Origin: a virus
Direction: 5' to 3' (one strand)
Length of the DNA stretch: 64,000 nt
IMG/VR virus record: IMGVR_UViG_3300020438_004021
Span: 62,001-126,000 of that record
The notes under the pieces are model-generated. The model was not told the DNA's origin. It ran no database searches and saw nothing but the letters and a program-made list of their open reading frames with translations. The translations under genes and the position numbers were made by a program. Below are positions 9,720-19,709 of this stretch, one piece after another (the stretch's first letter is position 1; every line of letters starts with the position of its first letter).

Positions 9720-10622
9720 TTATTTATAAGAAAAAACGGCTTCCGTGGAAGTTAGGTCGTCTACCTCTTCCTTCCTAAGTCTTCTTCCTACTATCCAAAA
9801 CAACGTCTTCTCCTTGGAGACATCGATATTTTCCCTCATCCATTTATGTGCTTTTCCTTCATAGATGTCGTCTATGAGTTCTCCGTTCACTTCTTCCCAT
9901 ATGGATTTAGAGTAGGCATCCTTAGTCAGGTGTATCTCATACTCTGGGAATTCCAGCACCTCTTGGGGAAAATTCTCATACCTAAACCTGTCTAAGTGTT
10001 GATTAATTGACTTGGTCCTATCGCAGAAGGCTATACCTATGACCCTCTTGACCTTTTTATTAAACTTATGTAGACCCCTGATAATGCCCGCGAACTGGAT
10101 TCCACTACCAACAGGTATTACTAGGTTGTCTAGTTCGTCTGGGATATTTTCTACCTGGTTGGTGACCCCATCGAATATAGCCTCTGGGTTACTCTCGAGG
10201 CTGATCGCGAACTTGATTAATTTATAATTATTATTCGCTATAATCTTCTTCTTAGCACCTGCGTCTATTGCGGTAGTCATACCGTGACCGGCTACGATTC
10301 GTATTTCCGAACCATAGTGCCTGGTCAACCGCATAATATGATGTTTATATAGGGTGTCTTCTTTACAACCACCGACGGCTACTACACACTTAATCCCATA
10401 CTCTTTCGCTACTTTTGCTATAATGGCACTTTGTGGGCTATGGACCGAACTTGCGGTTACAACCCCACCATTGTGGTTCTCGATTATGTCATCTCTGATT
10501 TCATCGAATAGTTGTACTGCCTGCCTTACCTTACCACCATTGATATGGTTGATTCCGTATGGGGCATATAAATCATCCCTCTTGTAGTATACGTCGCCAT
10601 GTTTTTGGATAGGGGTCATCAT
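9720..10622 (-). CDS. Fold-type II PLP-dependent enzyme (ACC deaminase / D-cysteine desulfhydrase-like)
   Basis: 300 residues. The N-terminal block VYYKRDDLYAPYGINHINGG followed by K31-VRQ matches the pyridoxal-phosphate lysine region of the ACC deaminase/D-cysteine desulfhydrase group (KRDD...GGNKxR). SSVHSPQSAIIAKVAKEYG fits the substrate-carboxylate/cofactor loop and VIPVGSGIQFAG fits the glycine-rich phosphate-binding loop. Enzymes of this fold act on amino acids by deamination, beta-elimination or replacement. The substrate cannot be told from sequence. It is 5'-most in the minus-strand late group, so an amino-acid metabolic gene or a role in DNA or virion modification are both open. Confidence 0.78.
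   Translation of the reverse strand: MMTPIQKHGDVYYKRDDLYAPYGINHINGGKVRQAVQLFDEIRDDIIENHNGGVVTASSVHSPQSAIIAKVAKEYGIKCVVAVGGCKEDTLYKHHIMRLTRHYGSEIRIVAGHGMTTAIDAGAKKKIIANNNYKLIKFAISLESNPEAIFDGVTNQVENIPDELDNLVIPVGSGIQFAGIIRGLHKFNKKVKRVIGIAFCDRTKSINQHLDRFRYENFPQEVLEFPEYEIHLTKDAYSKSIWEEVNGELIDDIYEGKAHKWMRENIDVSKEKTLFWIVGRRLRKEEVDDLTSTEAVFSYK
9721..9728 (-). promoter_or_regulatory. T4-type late promoter TATAAATA (minus strand)
   Basis: The plus strand reads TATTTATA, so the minus strand carries the exact late octamer, 8 bases before the ATG of the protease lipoprotein and overlapping the end of the PLP-enzyme gene. Confidence 0.7.
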
Positions 10623-16432: not shown

Positions 16433-16461
16433 TTGACAGGATAAATAACCTGTGATCTAAT
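16433..16461 (+). promoter_or_regulatory. Early promoter TTGACA-N17-TCTAAT
   Basis: -35 at 16433, -10 at 16456, spacer 17, followed by GG. A second TTGACA at 16419 has TAAATA exactly 17 bases later (16442), so two start sites may overlap. Drives the HTH gene at 16553 with a leader of about 85 bases. Confidence 0.82.
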
Positions 16462-16552: not shown

Positions 16553-16825
16553 ATGATGACAAAGATCTCAAAGCGTCGTAAGGTTATGAACTTCCTCAGC
16601 AACTCTGACAAGGGACTAACCGAGAGCGAAGCCCGCTCAATGTTTGGTGTCAATGCACTGCCTTCAGTGATCAGCAGCATCAAGAAGCAGGTCGAATGCA
16701 ATGGTAATTGGGAAATCGTCAAGGAGCGTACGCCTCGTAACAAGGTTCGCTATTTCATGAACGATACCCACCCAGGCACTCGCTCCTACGGTTTCAACCG
16801 TGACGGCAGTCGCTACGCTATCTGA
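16553..16825 (+). CDS. Winged-helix/HTH-like small protein
   Basis: 90 residues from ATG 16553, chosen because AAGGAG lies 9 bases upstream; the longer frame from 16460 would begin inside the -10 box. KVMNFLSNSDKGLTESEARSMFG, then ALPSVISSIKKQ, reads as helix-turn-helix, followed by wing-like strands (NWEIVKERTPRNKVRYFMND). A DNA-binding regulator is likely but the target is unknown. It has its own promoter and sits just upstream of the two RNA units, so regulation of early transcription is plausible. Confidence 0.68.
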   Translation: MMTKISKRRKVMNFLSNSDKGLTESEARSMFGVNALPSVISSIKKQVECNGNWEIVKERTPRNKVRYFMNDTHPGTRSYGFNRDGSRYAI

Positions 16826-16855
16826 TTCCTAACGGAATCGCCCCCTACAATTCAA

Positions 16856-16887
16856 GTCTTTTGATGGGTTCACTCCCATTGAAAGAC
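16856..16887 (+). terminator. 13-base-pair hairpin after the HTH gene
   Basis: GTCTTTTGATGGG pairs with CCCATTGAAAGAC across a 6-base loop (two G-U pairs). It is followed by only ATTCTT, so it may be a weak terminator or an RNA-stability/processing stem. A smaller perfect stem GATTCC/GGAATC overlaps the gene's stop codon at 16824-16839. Confidence 0.5.
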
Positions 16888-16891
16888 ATTC

Positions 16892-16920
16892 TTGACAAGT
16901 GAATAGAATATAAGTGCATT
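16892..16920 (+). promoter_or_regulatory. Promoter TTGACA-N17-TGCATT for RNA unit 1
   Basis: -35 at 16892, exactly 17 bases, then TGCATT followed by GGG as at the other early promoters. The -10 is weak, but spacing and flank match the family. No ORF with an RBS follows. Confidence 0.6.
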
Positions 16921-16926
16921 GGGATT

Positions 16927-17285
16927 AATTACCTCGATGCCGGACGGTGACAGAATATTTTTCGTTACTGAAGATAATGTATGCAATTCCTCGTGGTAAG
17001 GTGCGAATGCTCAAATGAGTGAAGTAGTCTTTGACCAAGACAGTTGCAGTGCGAGTAGGAAATAACCAAACTAGGTAACTCCGAAAGTTGTGGGTATAGT
17101 TGAGTCCCATCCGTCCATGAATAACGTCTCAGAAGAGGTGGTTCGAGTCCACCCATTAGGGCTGCAGTCAGACCCTGTAGTGTATGTCAGAGTTCAGCAC
17201 GCTGAGACAGGATTTTCCGAGGTTGTGTGGGGTGGAGCAGGGTGGTTGACTTTCTAGTTTGACAGCTCCCCCACACAACCTTTTA
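16927..17285 (+). ncRNA. Candidate structured non-coding RNA 1
   Basis: About 360 bases between a promoter (16892-16920) and a terminator-like hairpin (17221-17280), with no credible ORF on either strand. Many local stems are visible: CGGTGAC/GTTACTG (16945-16970), GTCTT/AAGAC (17027-17041), AACT/AGTT (17077-17089), GTGGG/CCCAT (17090-17110) and a perfect tRNA T-arm GGTGG-TTCGAGT-CCACC (17137-17153). No matching acceptor or anticodon stem was found, so it is not a normal tRNA, and no ALAA-type tag reading frame for tmRNA is present. The exact ends are estimates. Function unknown. Confidence 0.5.
17221..17284 (+). terminator. Long terminator-like hairpin ending RNA unit 1
   Basis: GGTTGTGTGGGG (17221-17232) pairs perfectly with CCCCACACAACC (17269-17280) and GAGC/GCTC extends the stem inward; TTTT follows at 17281. 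The stem's 3' arm is also the spacer of the next promoter. The 5' arm could instead pair with ACCTCG at 16931-16936, so an alternative closed structure is possible. Confidence 0.65.
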
Positions 17286-17287
17286 AT
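17259..17287 (+). promoter_or_regulatory. Promoter TTGACA-N17-TTTAAT for RNA unit 2
   Basis: -35 at 17259, spacer exactly 17, -10 TTTAAT at 17282. It lies inside the terminator hairpin of RNA unit 1. The predicted transcript starts near 17294. Confidence 0.6.
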
Positions 17288-17293
17288 CTACCG

Positions 17294-17466
17294 TTCTAAA
17301 GGAGACCTGCTATGGAGACCTAGGATTTTATTAATAAGATAGGATTTTAATATTATAGCACGTCAATTGACAGACTCAAAACAGCAACCGAACGAAGTTA
17401 ACTGGTCTTCCTATCGTTCGGTATTAAAGACCAGCGTTCTGACCCCGTACGATAACGGGGTTTTTT
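17294..17466 (+). ncRNA. Candidate structured non-coding RNA 2 with pseudoknot and terminator
   Basis: About 170 bases between promoter 17259-17287 and the terminator at 17443-17466. It contains only a three-codon ORF (ATG GAG ACC TAG at 17312) behind a good AAGGAG, so it is probably not a protein gene. Two stems interleave: CCGAACG/CGTTCGG (17388-17394 with 17415-17421) and CTGGTCTT/AAGACCAG (17402-17409 with 17427-17434), the arrangement of an H-type pseudoknot or of two mutually exclusive folds. Direct repeats GGAGACCT (twice) and AGGATTTTA (twice) lie in the 5' part. Function unknown; a regulatory leader or an sRNA are both possible. Confidence 0.5.
17443..17466 (+). terminator. Rho-independent terminator
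   Basis: CCCCGT, loop ACGATA, ACGGGG, then TTTTTT at 17461-17466. This is the clearest intrinsic terminator in the window. Confidence 0.9.
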
Positions 17467-17472
17467 CATATA

Positions 17473-17516
17473 CCCCCTCCTGATATCTAGAAAACGCTAT
17501 ATCCCCTCCTGATATC
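17473..17516. repeat. Two GATATC-centred repeats upstream of an early promoter
   Basis: CCCCCTCCTGATATC (17473-17487) and CCCCTCCTGATATC (17503-17516), 30 bases apart start to start, ending 10 bases before the -35 box at 17527. They match the copies at 10661 and 10757 except for one T. Confidence 0.65.
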
Positions 17517-17526
17517 GAGAAGGTAC

Positions 17527-17555
17527 TTGACAGGAGGTCAAAGCCATGATCTAAT
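17527..17555 (+). promoter_or_regulatory. Early promoter TTGACA-N17-TCTAAT
   Basis: -35 at 17527, -10 at 17550, spacer 17, GCCATGA before and GGG after the -10 as at 12298. Leader of about 17 bases with AAAAGGAG before the ATG at 17579. Confidence 0.88.
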
Positions 17556-17578
17556 GGGTGGAGTAAAAGGAGATATGG

Positions 17579-17770
17579 ATGGCAAAACGAGTATGGGACA
17601 GATTTGACGAAGAAGCCGAGAGAGAAGGAGCCGCCTTCACCAAGCAGGTAGTCACCCAAATTATAAAAGGTGGGGGTCGTGAAGGCAAGAAAATCCGAAA
17701 GCAGAGAAGCGGCATCCAAGCTGCTCTTAACCGTTCTGAAATGCGTATTATGAGGAAATATCTAGTATGA
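17579..17770 (+). CDS. Small basic early protein
   Basis: 63 residues, start set by AAAAGGAG 6 bases upstream. Basic and helical (EREGAAFTKQVVTQIIKGGG; KKIRKQRSGIQAALNRSEMRIMRKYL). First gene behind an operator-flanked early promoter; ATGA-coupled to a zinc-finger protein. A nucleic-acid-binding protein is plausible from charge only. Confidence 0.65.
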   Translation: MAKRVWDRFDEEAEREGAAFTKQVVTQIIKGGGREGKKIRKQRSGIQAALNRSEMRIMRKYLV

Positions 17771-18635: not shown

Positions 18636-19709
18636 ATGATTGAGTCTGGTAAGGTGAATTTTCTTATTGATGGACAGTGGGGAAGCACTGGCAAGGGCAA
18701 ACTTGCCGGTTACATGTATAGCAGATTTAAGAATCTGAACATGGCAATCAGTGATAATATGCCAAATGCGGGGCATACCTTTACACGCGATGGTAAGAAC
18801 TTCATCTTTAAGGCCCTTCCTACCGGAGTTTTGTTCGATGAAGTGACATCTTTAATCGGTCCACAGGCAGTGATGGGTGAAGAGCAGTTCCAATATGAAA
18901 TGGAGATGGTGAAGAACGAAATAGGTCACTATCCCAAGGTAATCATCCACCCAATGGCAACCGTTGTAACCGCCAGTGACAAAGATGCTGAAGCAGGAAT
19001 CGTCAGCAAAATGGCAAGTACGGGTCAGGGTTCTTGTTCCGCTACCGTTAAGAAGATGTGGAGACGAGGAGAGGCAAACCTCGCCAAGAACAGCAAGGTG
19101 TTTGATGAATTCGTCGGTGATACCCATTCCTTCCTTCATGAAGGACTTAAGAAGGGTGGTGCTGCACTTTCGGAAGGTAGTCAAGGTTTTGACCTTTCAA
19201 TGAATTGCGGACATGCCTACCCACACACGACGTCACGCGATTGCTTGATCGGGAGAATGATGGACAATGCAGGATGCCCAGTCAAGTCTGTAGGTAGCAT
19301 AATCGCTTGTCTAAGGACACTGCCAATTCGCGTTGGAAGCACTGAGAACACGAGCGGTCCTTACTACGACGACCAGAATGAAATCGACTGGAAGACGGTA
19401 TCCGATATGTGTGGTCATGATGTAGAAGAAAGAACTACAGTGACCCAGAGAGTTCGTAGAGTATTTACATTCTCGGAAGAACAGACTAGGAAGTTCTGCG
19501 AATTTGTTCGTCCGGATTATGCATTCCTTAACTTCGTTAACTACTATAAGGAAGAGGGAGACCGACTCAATGCTGTCTCTGAAGTAGCGACAATTCTGGG
19601 TGAGTACGGTTGCGACCTTACACTACTAGGTACTGGTGCTGGACTAGACGATATGGAAATGACCAGCAACGAGCAAATCCTAGGCAAGCAGGAAACACTT
19701 TTTGCATGA
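18636..19709 (+). CDS. Adenylosuccinate-synthetase family enzyme, PurZ-like (aminoadenylosuccinate synthase candidate)
   Basis: 357 residues. Family motifs are clear: the P-loop DGQWGSTGKGK (12-22), NAGHTF with H47, ASTGQGSCSAT, SEGSQGFDLSM and CGHAYPHTTS. PurA of cells reads GQWGDEGKGK there; its catalytic Asp is replaced here by S17. This substitution is the hallmark recalled for phage PurZ, which joins aspartate to dGMP on the way to 2-aminoadenine (Z) nucleotides. Length also fits the short archaeal/PurZ class rather than the ~430-residue bacterial PurA. It has its own promoter and is ATGA-coupled to a nucleotide-kinase gene. An IMP-using PurA variant cannot be excluded. Confidence 0.82.
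   Translation: MIESGKVNFLIDGQWGSTGKGKLAGYMYSRFKNLNMAISDNMPNAGHTFTRDGKNFIFKALPTGVLFDEVTSLIGPQAVMGEEQFQYEMEMVKNEIGHYPKVIIHPMATVVTASDKDAEAGIVSKMASTGQGSCSATVKKMWRRGEANLAKNSKVFDEFVGDTHSFLHEGLKKGGAALSEGSQGFDLSMNCGHAYPHTTSRDCLIGRMMDNAGCPVKSVGSIIACLRTLPIRVGSTENTSGPYYDDQNEIDWKTVSDMCGHDVEERTTVTQRVRRVFTFSEEQTRKFCEFVRPDYAFLNFVNYYKEEGDRLNAVSEVATILGEYGCDLTLLGTGAGLDDMEMTSNEQILGKQETLFA

Follow-up and report, generated by a model that had tools for sequence, protein, structure and literature searches.

A protein-free interval in a T4-like marine phage

The window, the 64,000-nucleotide stretch of DNA analysed in this study, originates from a 136,240-base IMG/VR virus record, whose large terminase is 58% identical to its closest match, found among T4-like cyanomyoviruses. 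For its RNA-bearing part, described below, there is no DNA similarity to named phages. Inspection of open reading frames bears out the statement of an earlier note on this DNA that 753 bases (16826–17578) are devoid of a credible gene, since the upstream gene stops at 16825 and the first credible start after it, that of a gene spanning 17579–17770, is located at 17579. The small upstream gene is conserved in 36 loci, and in phages of the clade of the window it is usually followed by the RNA unit. Further downstream, at 18636–19709, a phage adenylosuccinate synthetase-like gene encodes 357 amino acids, and the small genes preceding it are conserved in relatives.

Within the gap, the segment 16919–17287 folds better than shuffled sequences (z -2.3). 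Conservation over the RNA region does not extend to any small ORF of a useful length, and the sole conserved reading element seen there consists of three codons (17312–17323). This frame forms part of a small arrangement at 17298–17323, with the Shine-Dalgarno sequence AAAGGAG followed by ATG GAG ACC and a stop codon (TAG, replaced by TAA in the relative L002, a phage with 92% identity in the neighbouring PurA-like protein). At Rfam gathering scores, two tRNAs are the sole matches in the whole window and no family is detected in the gap, and neither a tRNA nor a tmRNA was found there by ARAGORN. RNase P RNA, group I introns, GOLLD and ROOL yielded no Rfam match at gathering scores or at E-values up to 5, and no tmRNA tag frame was found, which for tmRNA, RNase P RNA and group I introns agrees with what had been noticed from the sequence before.

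Table 1. Positions of the described features in the window and of related RNAs in other contigs.
Feature	Position	Strand	Basis and remarks
Promoter-like TTGACA-N17-TCTAAT	16433–16461	+	Read from sequence; 5' of the preceding gene
Small upstream gene	16555–16825	+	About 90 amino acids, SKRR[KQ]V.NFL... family; locus marker in relatives
13-bp hairpin behind the gene	16856–16887	+	z -3.5; base-paired in L002 too
Leader TTGACAAGTGAATA	16892–16905	+	Conserved among relatives, directly 5' of the RNA; candidate promoter or transcribed leader
Block missing from L002	16900–17123	+	218 nt between TGAATA direct repeats (16900–16905, 17118–17123)
Divergent full-length manA RNA (RF01745), predicted	16916–17120	+	Rfam covariance model and covariation
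Module C, undescribed cloverleaf, predicted	17126–17208	+	Fold and comparison with L002
Long G+C-rich hairpin, then TTTT	17219–17286	+	Terminator-like, weak U tract; not kept in L002
Non-coding stretch	17297–17395		Strongly conserved with L002; holds Shine-Dalgarno sequence and three-codon ORF (+) and promoter-like site (-)
Intrinsic terminator GACCCCGTACGATAACGGGGTTTTTT	17441–17466	+	Conserved in L002
Promoter-like TTGACA-N17-TCTAAT of the next gene	17527–17555	+	Same arrangement as 16433–16461; TTGACA-N17-TATAAT in L002
Module B (defined here)	L005 5205–5323; L041 3570–3698; L049 3553–3680; L154–L157 3' of manA		CGUUCC..GUGAAGAUGAUGUAAGAUUCAUUA..GGAACG
Cyanophage-type manA loci (examples)	L076 1906–2264; L077 1912–2274; L039 1133–1503; L128–L153

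A divergent manA RNA

At permissive thresholds, the covariance model of the manA motif (RF01745) aligns over its entire length (positions 1–192 of 192) with the RNA following the leader, at 49.8 bits and an E-value of 1.1e-11, or 4.9e-13 when the whole 136-kb record is searched. The previous notion that no known RNA is present thus has to be abandoned, with the qualification that the score lies about 5 bits below the gathering cut-off of 55.2 bits and hence does not amount to a match at gathering level. In related phages that share both leader and RNA, the score lies between 48 and 70 bits, in several of them above the cut-off (55.4–70.2), and several sister RNAs whose neighbourhood was checked sit behind the same small gene. 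Since the score of the window RNA is itself below the threshold, its membership rests on homology to these sisters. A further match, in L038 (22 bits), was discounted as it falls within a tail gene.

The fold was evaluated in an alignment of eleven members of the clade, on which the helices of the family were imposed. In this alignment 88.6% of the cells are paired and both sides have changed at 26 of 43 pairs, a signal that is reached by none of 500 shuffles and that collapses once the partner is shifted by one column. The closing, pseudoknot-type helix is paired throughout (100%), with both sides altered in four of its six pairs; it reads GGACGG/CCGUCC in the window, GGCCGG/CCGGCC in G070 and ACUCCG/CGGAGU in G071. 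Compensatory changes between homologues are thus plentiful over the manA region, and the structured RNA without a protein that had been proposed from the sequence is well supported. On the basis of these comparisons, we confidently assign the RNA as a divergent member of the manA family, residing in a predicted protein-less unit. Besides the full-length match and the closing helix, it has in common with the family the first hairpin, the core GUGACAGAAUA, the last hairpin GGGUAUAG..AGUCCC and the occurrence in marine T4-like phages. It differs from typical manA in its lower score, its location outside a 5' UTR, the second RNA module and terminator behind it and the leader TTGACAAGTGAATA. Of the candidate new RNA that the earlier note had envisaged, the main body therefore belongs to a published family, and the novelty resides in module C and in the companion modules of relatives, for which there is no Rfam match.

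A conserved tRNA-like module behind manA

The block that is missing from L002 corresponds to the manA RNA, which has been gained or lost as a unit. In this relative the leader joins module C directly, and leader, module C and terminator are retained. Module C is closed by a 7-bp stem (GUCUCAG/CUGAGAC) and contains, at 17137–17153, the arm GGUGG-UUCGAGU-CCACC, which is a perfect tRNA T-arm and is followed by two more hairpins. It is about 95% identical in L002, and the four changes within the fold, among them one compensatory pair, all preserve pairing on the + strand, which for two sequences is suggestive, as 245 of 500 shuffles reach the same level. A covariance model of module C finds matches in two phages only, that of the window and L002. 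The next-best matches (E 0.005 and weaker) are junctions of two adjacent tRNAs, from which it follows that the arms of the module are arranged as if a 3' half of a tRNA preceded a 5' half. A pattern search for the T-arm retrieved the close record of the window, L002 and unrelated tRNA genes and nothing else, and no Rfam family matches the module, including RF02553 even at an E-value of 5. Sequence and predicted fold together make a firm case for a conserved tRNA-like second module behind manA, which would represent either a tRNA-like form in permuted order or a relic.

Its likeness to tRNA and tmRNA is found in the perfect T-arm GGUUCGAGUCC and in the presence of permuted tmRNA genes near manA in L049, L050 and L052; in contrast to both, there is no call by ARAGORN or Rfam, no tag frame and no GG in the D-like loop. 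As relatives carry permuted tmRNAs, we considered module C as the first half of such a gene, an idea that was dropped in light of the absent tag frame and model match. The bacterial Y RNA YrlA (RF02553), a tRNA mimic, resembles module C as an RNA with a tRNA-like domain, which in YrlA is likewise entered via a stem other than the acceptor. An identity as Y RNA was rejected, since RF02553 does not match and no Ro/TROVE gene was found in the phage record or in two relatives. The permuted tmRNA genes themselves (with tags DNSYSMAA, ANQLAMAA and ATTMIANKLAMAA) are located in the marine phage contigs L049 (4870–5259), L050, L052, L060 (807–1199) and L067, and some such genes adjoin manA units.

Leader, promoters and terminators

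The TTGACA-N17 promoter that had been proposed to open the unit is confirmed with respect to its first hexamer, located at 16892–16897, but not with respect to a -10 box, as TGCATT stands 17 bases later and a promoter scan detected no sigma-70-like site on the + strand of the gap. The leader occurs in a single exact copy in the 64-kb window, which marks it as specific to this locus and which led us to reject a role as general phage promoter. In L047, L055 and L058 the element GACAAGTGAATAA is found downstream of a promoter and may thus be a transcribed leader; elsewhere, the T-run of an upstream terminator touches the element. It is possible, judging from the sequence, that a transcript starting at 16433–16461 runs into the RNA unit; this promoter-like site is omitted by the scan because its second hexamer does not contain an A at position 2. 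At the position equivalent to the 13-bp hairpin behind the upstream gene, several relatives contain an intrinsic terminator, and in several relatives the terminator scan found no hairpin with a T-run.

The hairpin followed by TTTT with which the unit had been thought to end is real (from 17219 to about 17282, MFE -33.4 kcal/mol, z -3.9), but the better terminator is the one at 17441–17466, which likely ends the predicted unit. The latter consequently runs past the end that had been assigned to it, and it holds several RNA modules in a row, which had been missed. On the opposite strand, the stretch preceding this terminator contains a promoter-like site (TTGAGT-N16-TATAAT with a TG before the -10 element, 17344–17379) that is conserved in L002 and points to the left, in antisense orientation relative to manA and module C; it is followed by the direct repeats TAAAATCCTA and AGGTCTCC.

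manA and companion modules in relatives

In cyanophages, manA RNAs abut tRNA genes. According to the published annotation of S-CREM1, manA (10215–10429) is placed between tRNA-Leu (10132–10213) and tRNA-Asn (10429–10501); in its passages on the motif, the corresponding paper classes manA as cis-regulatory and does not comment on the abutment. In ACG-2014f and S-B43/S-H68, tRNAs identified by ARAGORN are found 0–1 nt from both ends of manA. A further 26 contigs were gathered with a pattern of the RNA core that is blind to tRNAs, each confirmed by Rfam at 86–117 bits. Among the resulting 30 cyanophage-type loci, 24 start -2 to 5 nt behind a tRNA and 16 end -2 to 7 nt ahead of one, so that a tRNA adjoins at least one side in 29 and both sides in 11, compared to about 0.3 loci per side expected for random placement. 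After removal of redundancy, 13 RNAs remain, with a tRNA before manA in 11, after it in nine, on either side in 12 and on both sides in eight. The tRNA neighbours appear in at least nine different combinations. These cyanophage RNAs are not tied to the upstream small gene of the window, and the manA RNA of the window has no adjoining tRNA. Bacterial genomes scanned with the cyanophage-type pattern returned no match. With a pattern of the Rfam consensus type, two contigs were found, which are filed under Prochlorococcus and Flavobacteriales and whose neighbouring genes look phage-like.

Relatives of the window phage carry other structured modules behind manA, followed by a terminator, and in part of the set terminators are found after or between the modules. 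In L005, the leader directly precedes a different RNA module. Module B is found in about a dozen contigs, with manA upstream or without it; its consensus fold combines an invariant core (GUGAAGAUGAUGUAAGAUUCAUUA) with a covarying closing stem, and its loops might form a pseudoknot (GGCC/GGCC in G011, AGCC/GGCU in G008). The corresponding model, R2, has matches in relatives and none in the window or in L002. Two further modules, D (UUGGUGGUGCAGAAGCAC..GAACCACCAA, also given as UUGGUGGUGCAGAAGCAC..ACCACCAA) and E (GGGGAAGUGGACGGAAGACACUUC..CUCCUUCCC), were recognised by eye 3' of manA in L154, L155, L156 and L085 and near position 5220 in L004. The scanned examples of companion modules do not match any Rfam family. 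Modules B, C, D and E are candidates for new RNA families, and in the case of module C this may be a tRNA mimic with permuted arms.

Certain contigs show manA RNAs in a different context. In L161 and L162, the two contigs filed under Prochlorococcus and Flavobacteriales, manA scores very highly and is located directly behind a sigma-70-like promoter and ahead of small ORFs with ribosome-binding sites, as would be expected in a 5' UTR. The manA RNA of the window, in contrast, is separated from the next ORF (17579) by module C, the hairpin, the intrinsic terminator and another promoter-like site. A manA-like RNA with the conserved ends GGGACUC/GAGUCCC and GGUAUACAAUAACC and a different interior is found in L047 (4304–4540), L055 (4229–4470), L058 (4470–4710) and L054 (4176–4397). 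In the first three, a TTGACA-N16-TATAAT promoter precedes it and a strong terminator follows it, with an ORF immediately behind, a layout resembling that of an attenuator.

Discussion

The described features suggest that in this T4-like marine phage the region 16892–17466 is probably a protein-less transcription unit whose RNAs act in trans. With slightly less confidence, yet still in favour of this view, we expect the unit to produce free RNAs that function independently. A single transcript would contain, in this order, the manA RNA, module C, the long hairpin and the intrinsic terminator, and the RNAs would be separated by RNase cleavage in short A/U-rich linkers, a task that in the cyanophage relatives could be taken over by tRNA-maturation enzymes cutting at the adjoining tRNAs. 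Once freed, the RNAs might serve as stable accessory RNAs, acting in trans by binding a factor of host or phage, and not as a switch in cis for the gene that follows.

The manA motif has been a candidate riboswitch since 2010, and a limited literature search found no confirmed function. The original proposal (Weinberg et al., 2010; PMC2864571) describes manA as common in potential 5' UTRs, which together with the Rfam class Cis-reg would favour a metabolite-sensing aptamer that, as leader of a riboswitch or attenuator, controls the genes or RNAs behind it by read-through at the hairpin 17219–17286 or at the terminator at 17441. The small-ORF leaders of L161 and L162 are in line with such a role, and so are terminator-like hairpins that follow immediately behind manA in L037, L089, L159 and L160, some of them just before an ORF or a tRNA, and behind the variant in L047, L055 and L058. 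Still, we regard it as unlikely for manA of the window, where the next gene resides past a terminator behind its own promoter-like site and where the hairpin is not retained in L002, while almost all cyanophage-type loci adjoin tRNA genes. As the neighbour behind manA varies between phages (tRNA, RNA module or ORF), there is also no common gene that it would regulate. Even less probable, to an extent that we give it little credit, is a structured 3' untranslated region that shields the mRNA of the upstream gene from decay. The promoter-like site ahead of this gene and the lack of one on the + strand between gene and RNA would agree with it, but several relatives contain an intrinsic terminator between the gene and manA, the cyanophage RNAs are independent of the gene, and a barrier to decay does not need such detailed covariation.

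For module C, the perfect T-arm, the order of the arms, the model matches at tRNA junctions and the D-like loop without GG could also reflect the non-functional remains of tandem tRNA genes, in which a 3' half was joined to the next 5' half. This origin appears to us a real possibility, though the less probable one, as the module has remained nearly identical in L002 despite the absence of manA and its substitutions maintain pairing, the latter with the reservation imposed by the shuffles.

In favouring trans-acting RNAs, we note that the relatives adjoining tRNAs suggest that manA, mostly classed among gene switches, can be a stand-alone RNA as well. A comparable situation is found in GOLLD and ROOL (PMC12286853), which are likewise phage-borne structured RNAs near tRNA genes, a proximity that for manA applies to the relatives; they differ in that they belong to other families of far larger RNAs. 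A more general and speculative extension, which we consider doubtful in its entirety, would view the manA RNAs of T4-like marine phages as trans-acting RNAs instead of riboswitches, strung like interchangeable beads into tRNA arrays and into RNA operons without protein genes and excised by tRNA-maturation and other RNases; module C would be a tRNA mimic in circularly permuted form, and all of them would serve host take-over or counter-defence. Where phage manA is flush with tRNAs or part of protein-less units that hold other unlisted RNAs, the search should be directed, in infected cells, at a free RNA about 200 nt long whose ends are made by RNases, rather than at a ligand.

A separate observation concerns the contigs L014, L016–L021, L023 and L026, which share the sequence ..CTTTTAATCCATTGGTTGTGGGTTCGAGTCCCACAGGGCCTAC and, behind it, a conserved hairpin (GGACCCCAGCTCA..TGAGCTGGGGTCC). 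The arrangement resembles a tRNA-Lys gene whose 3' end serves as integration site.
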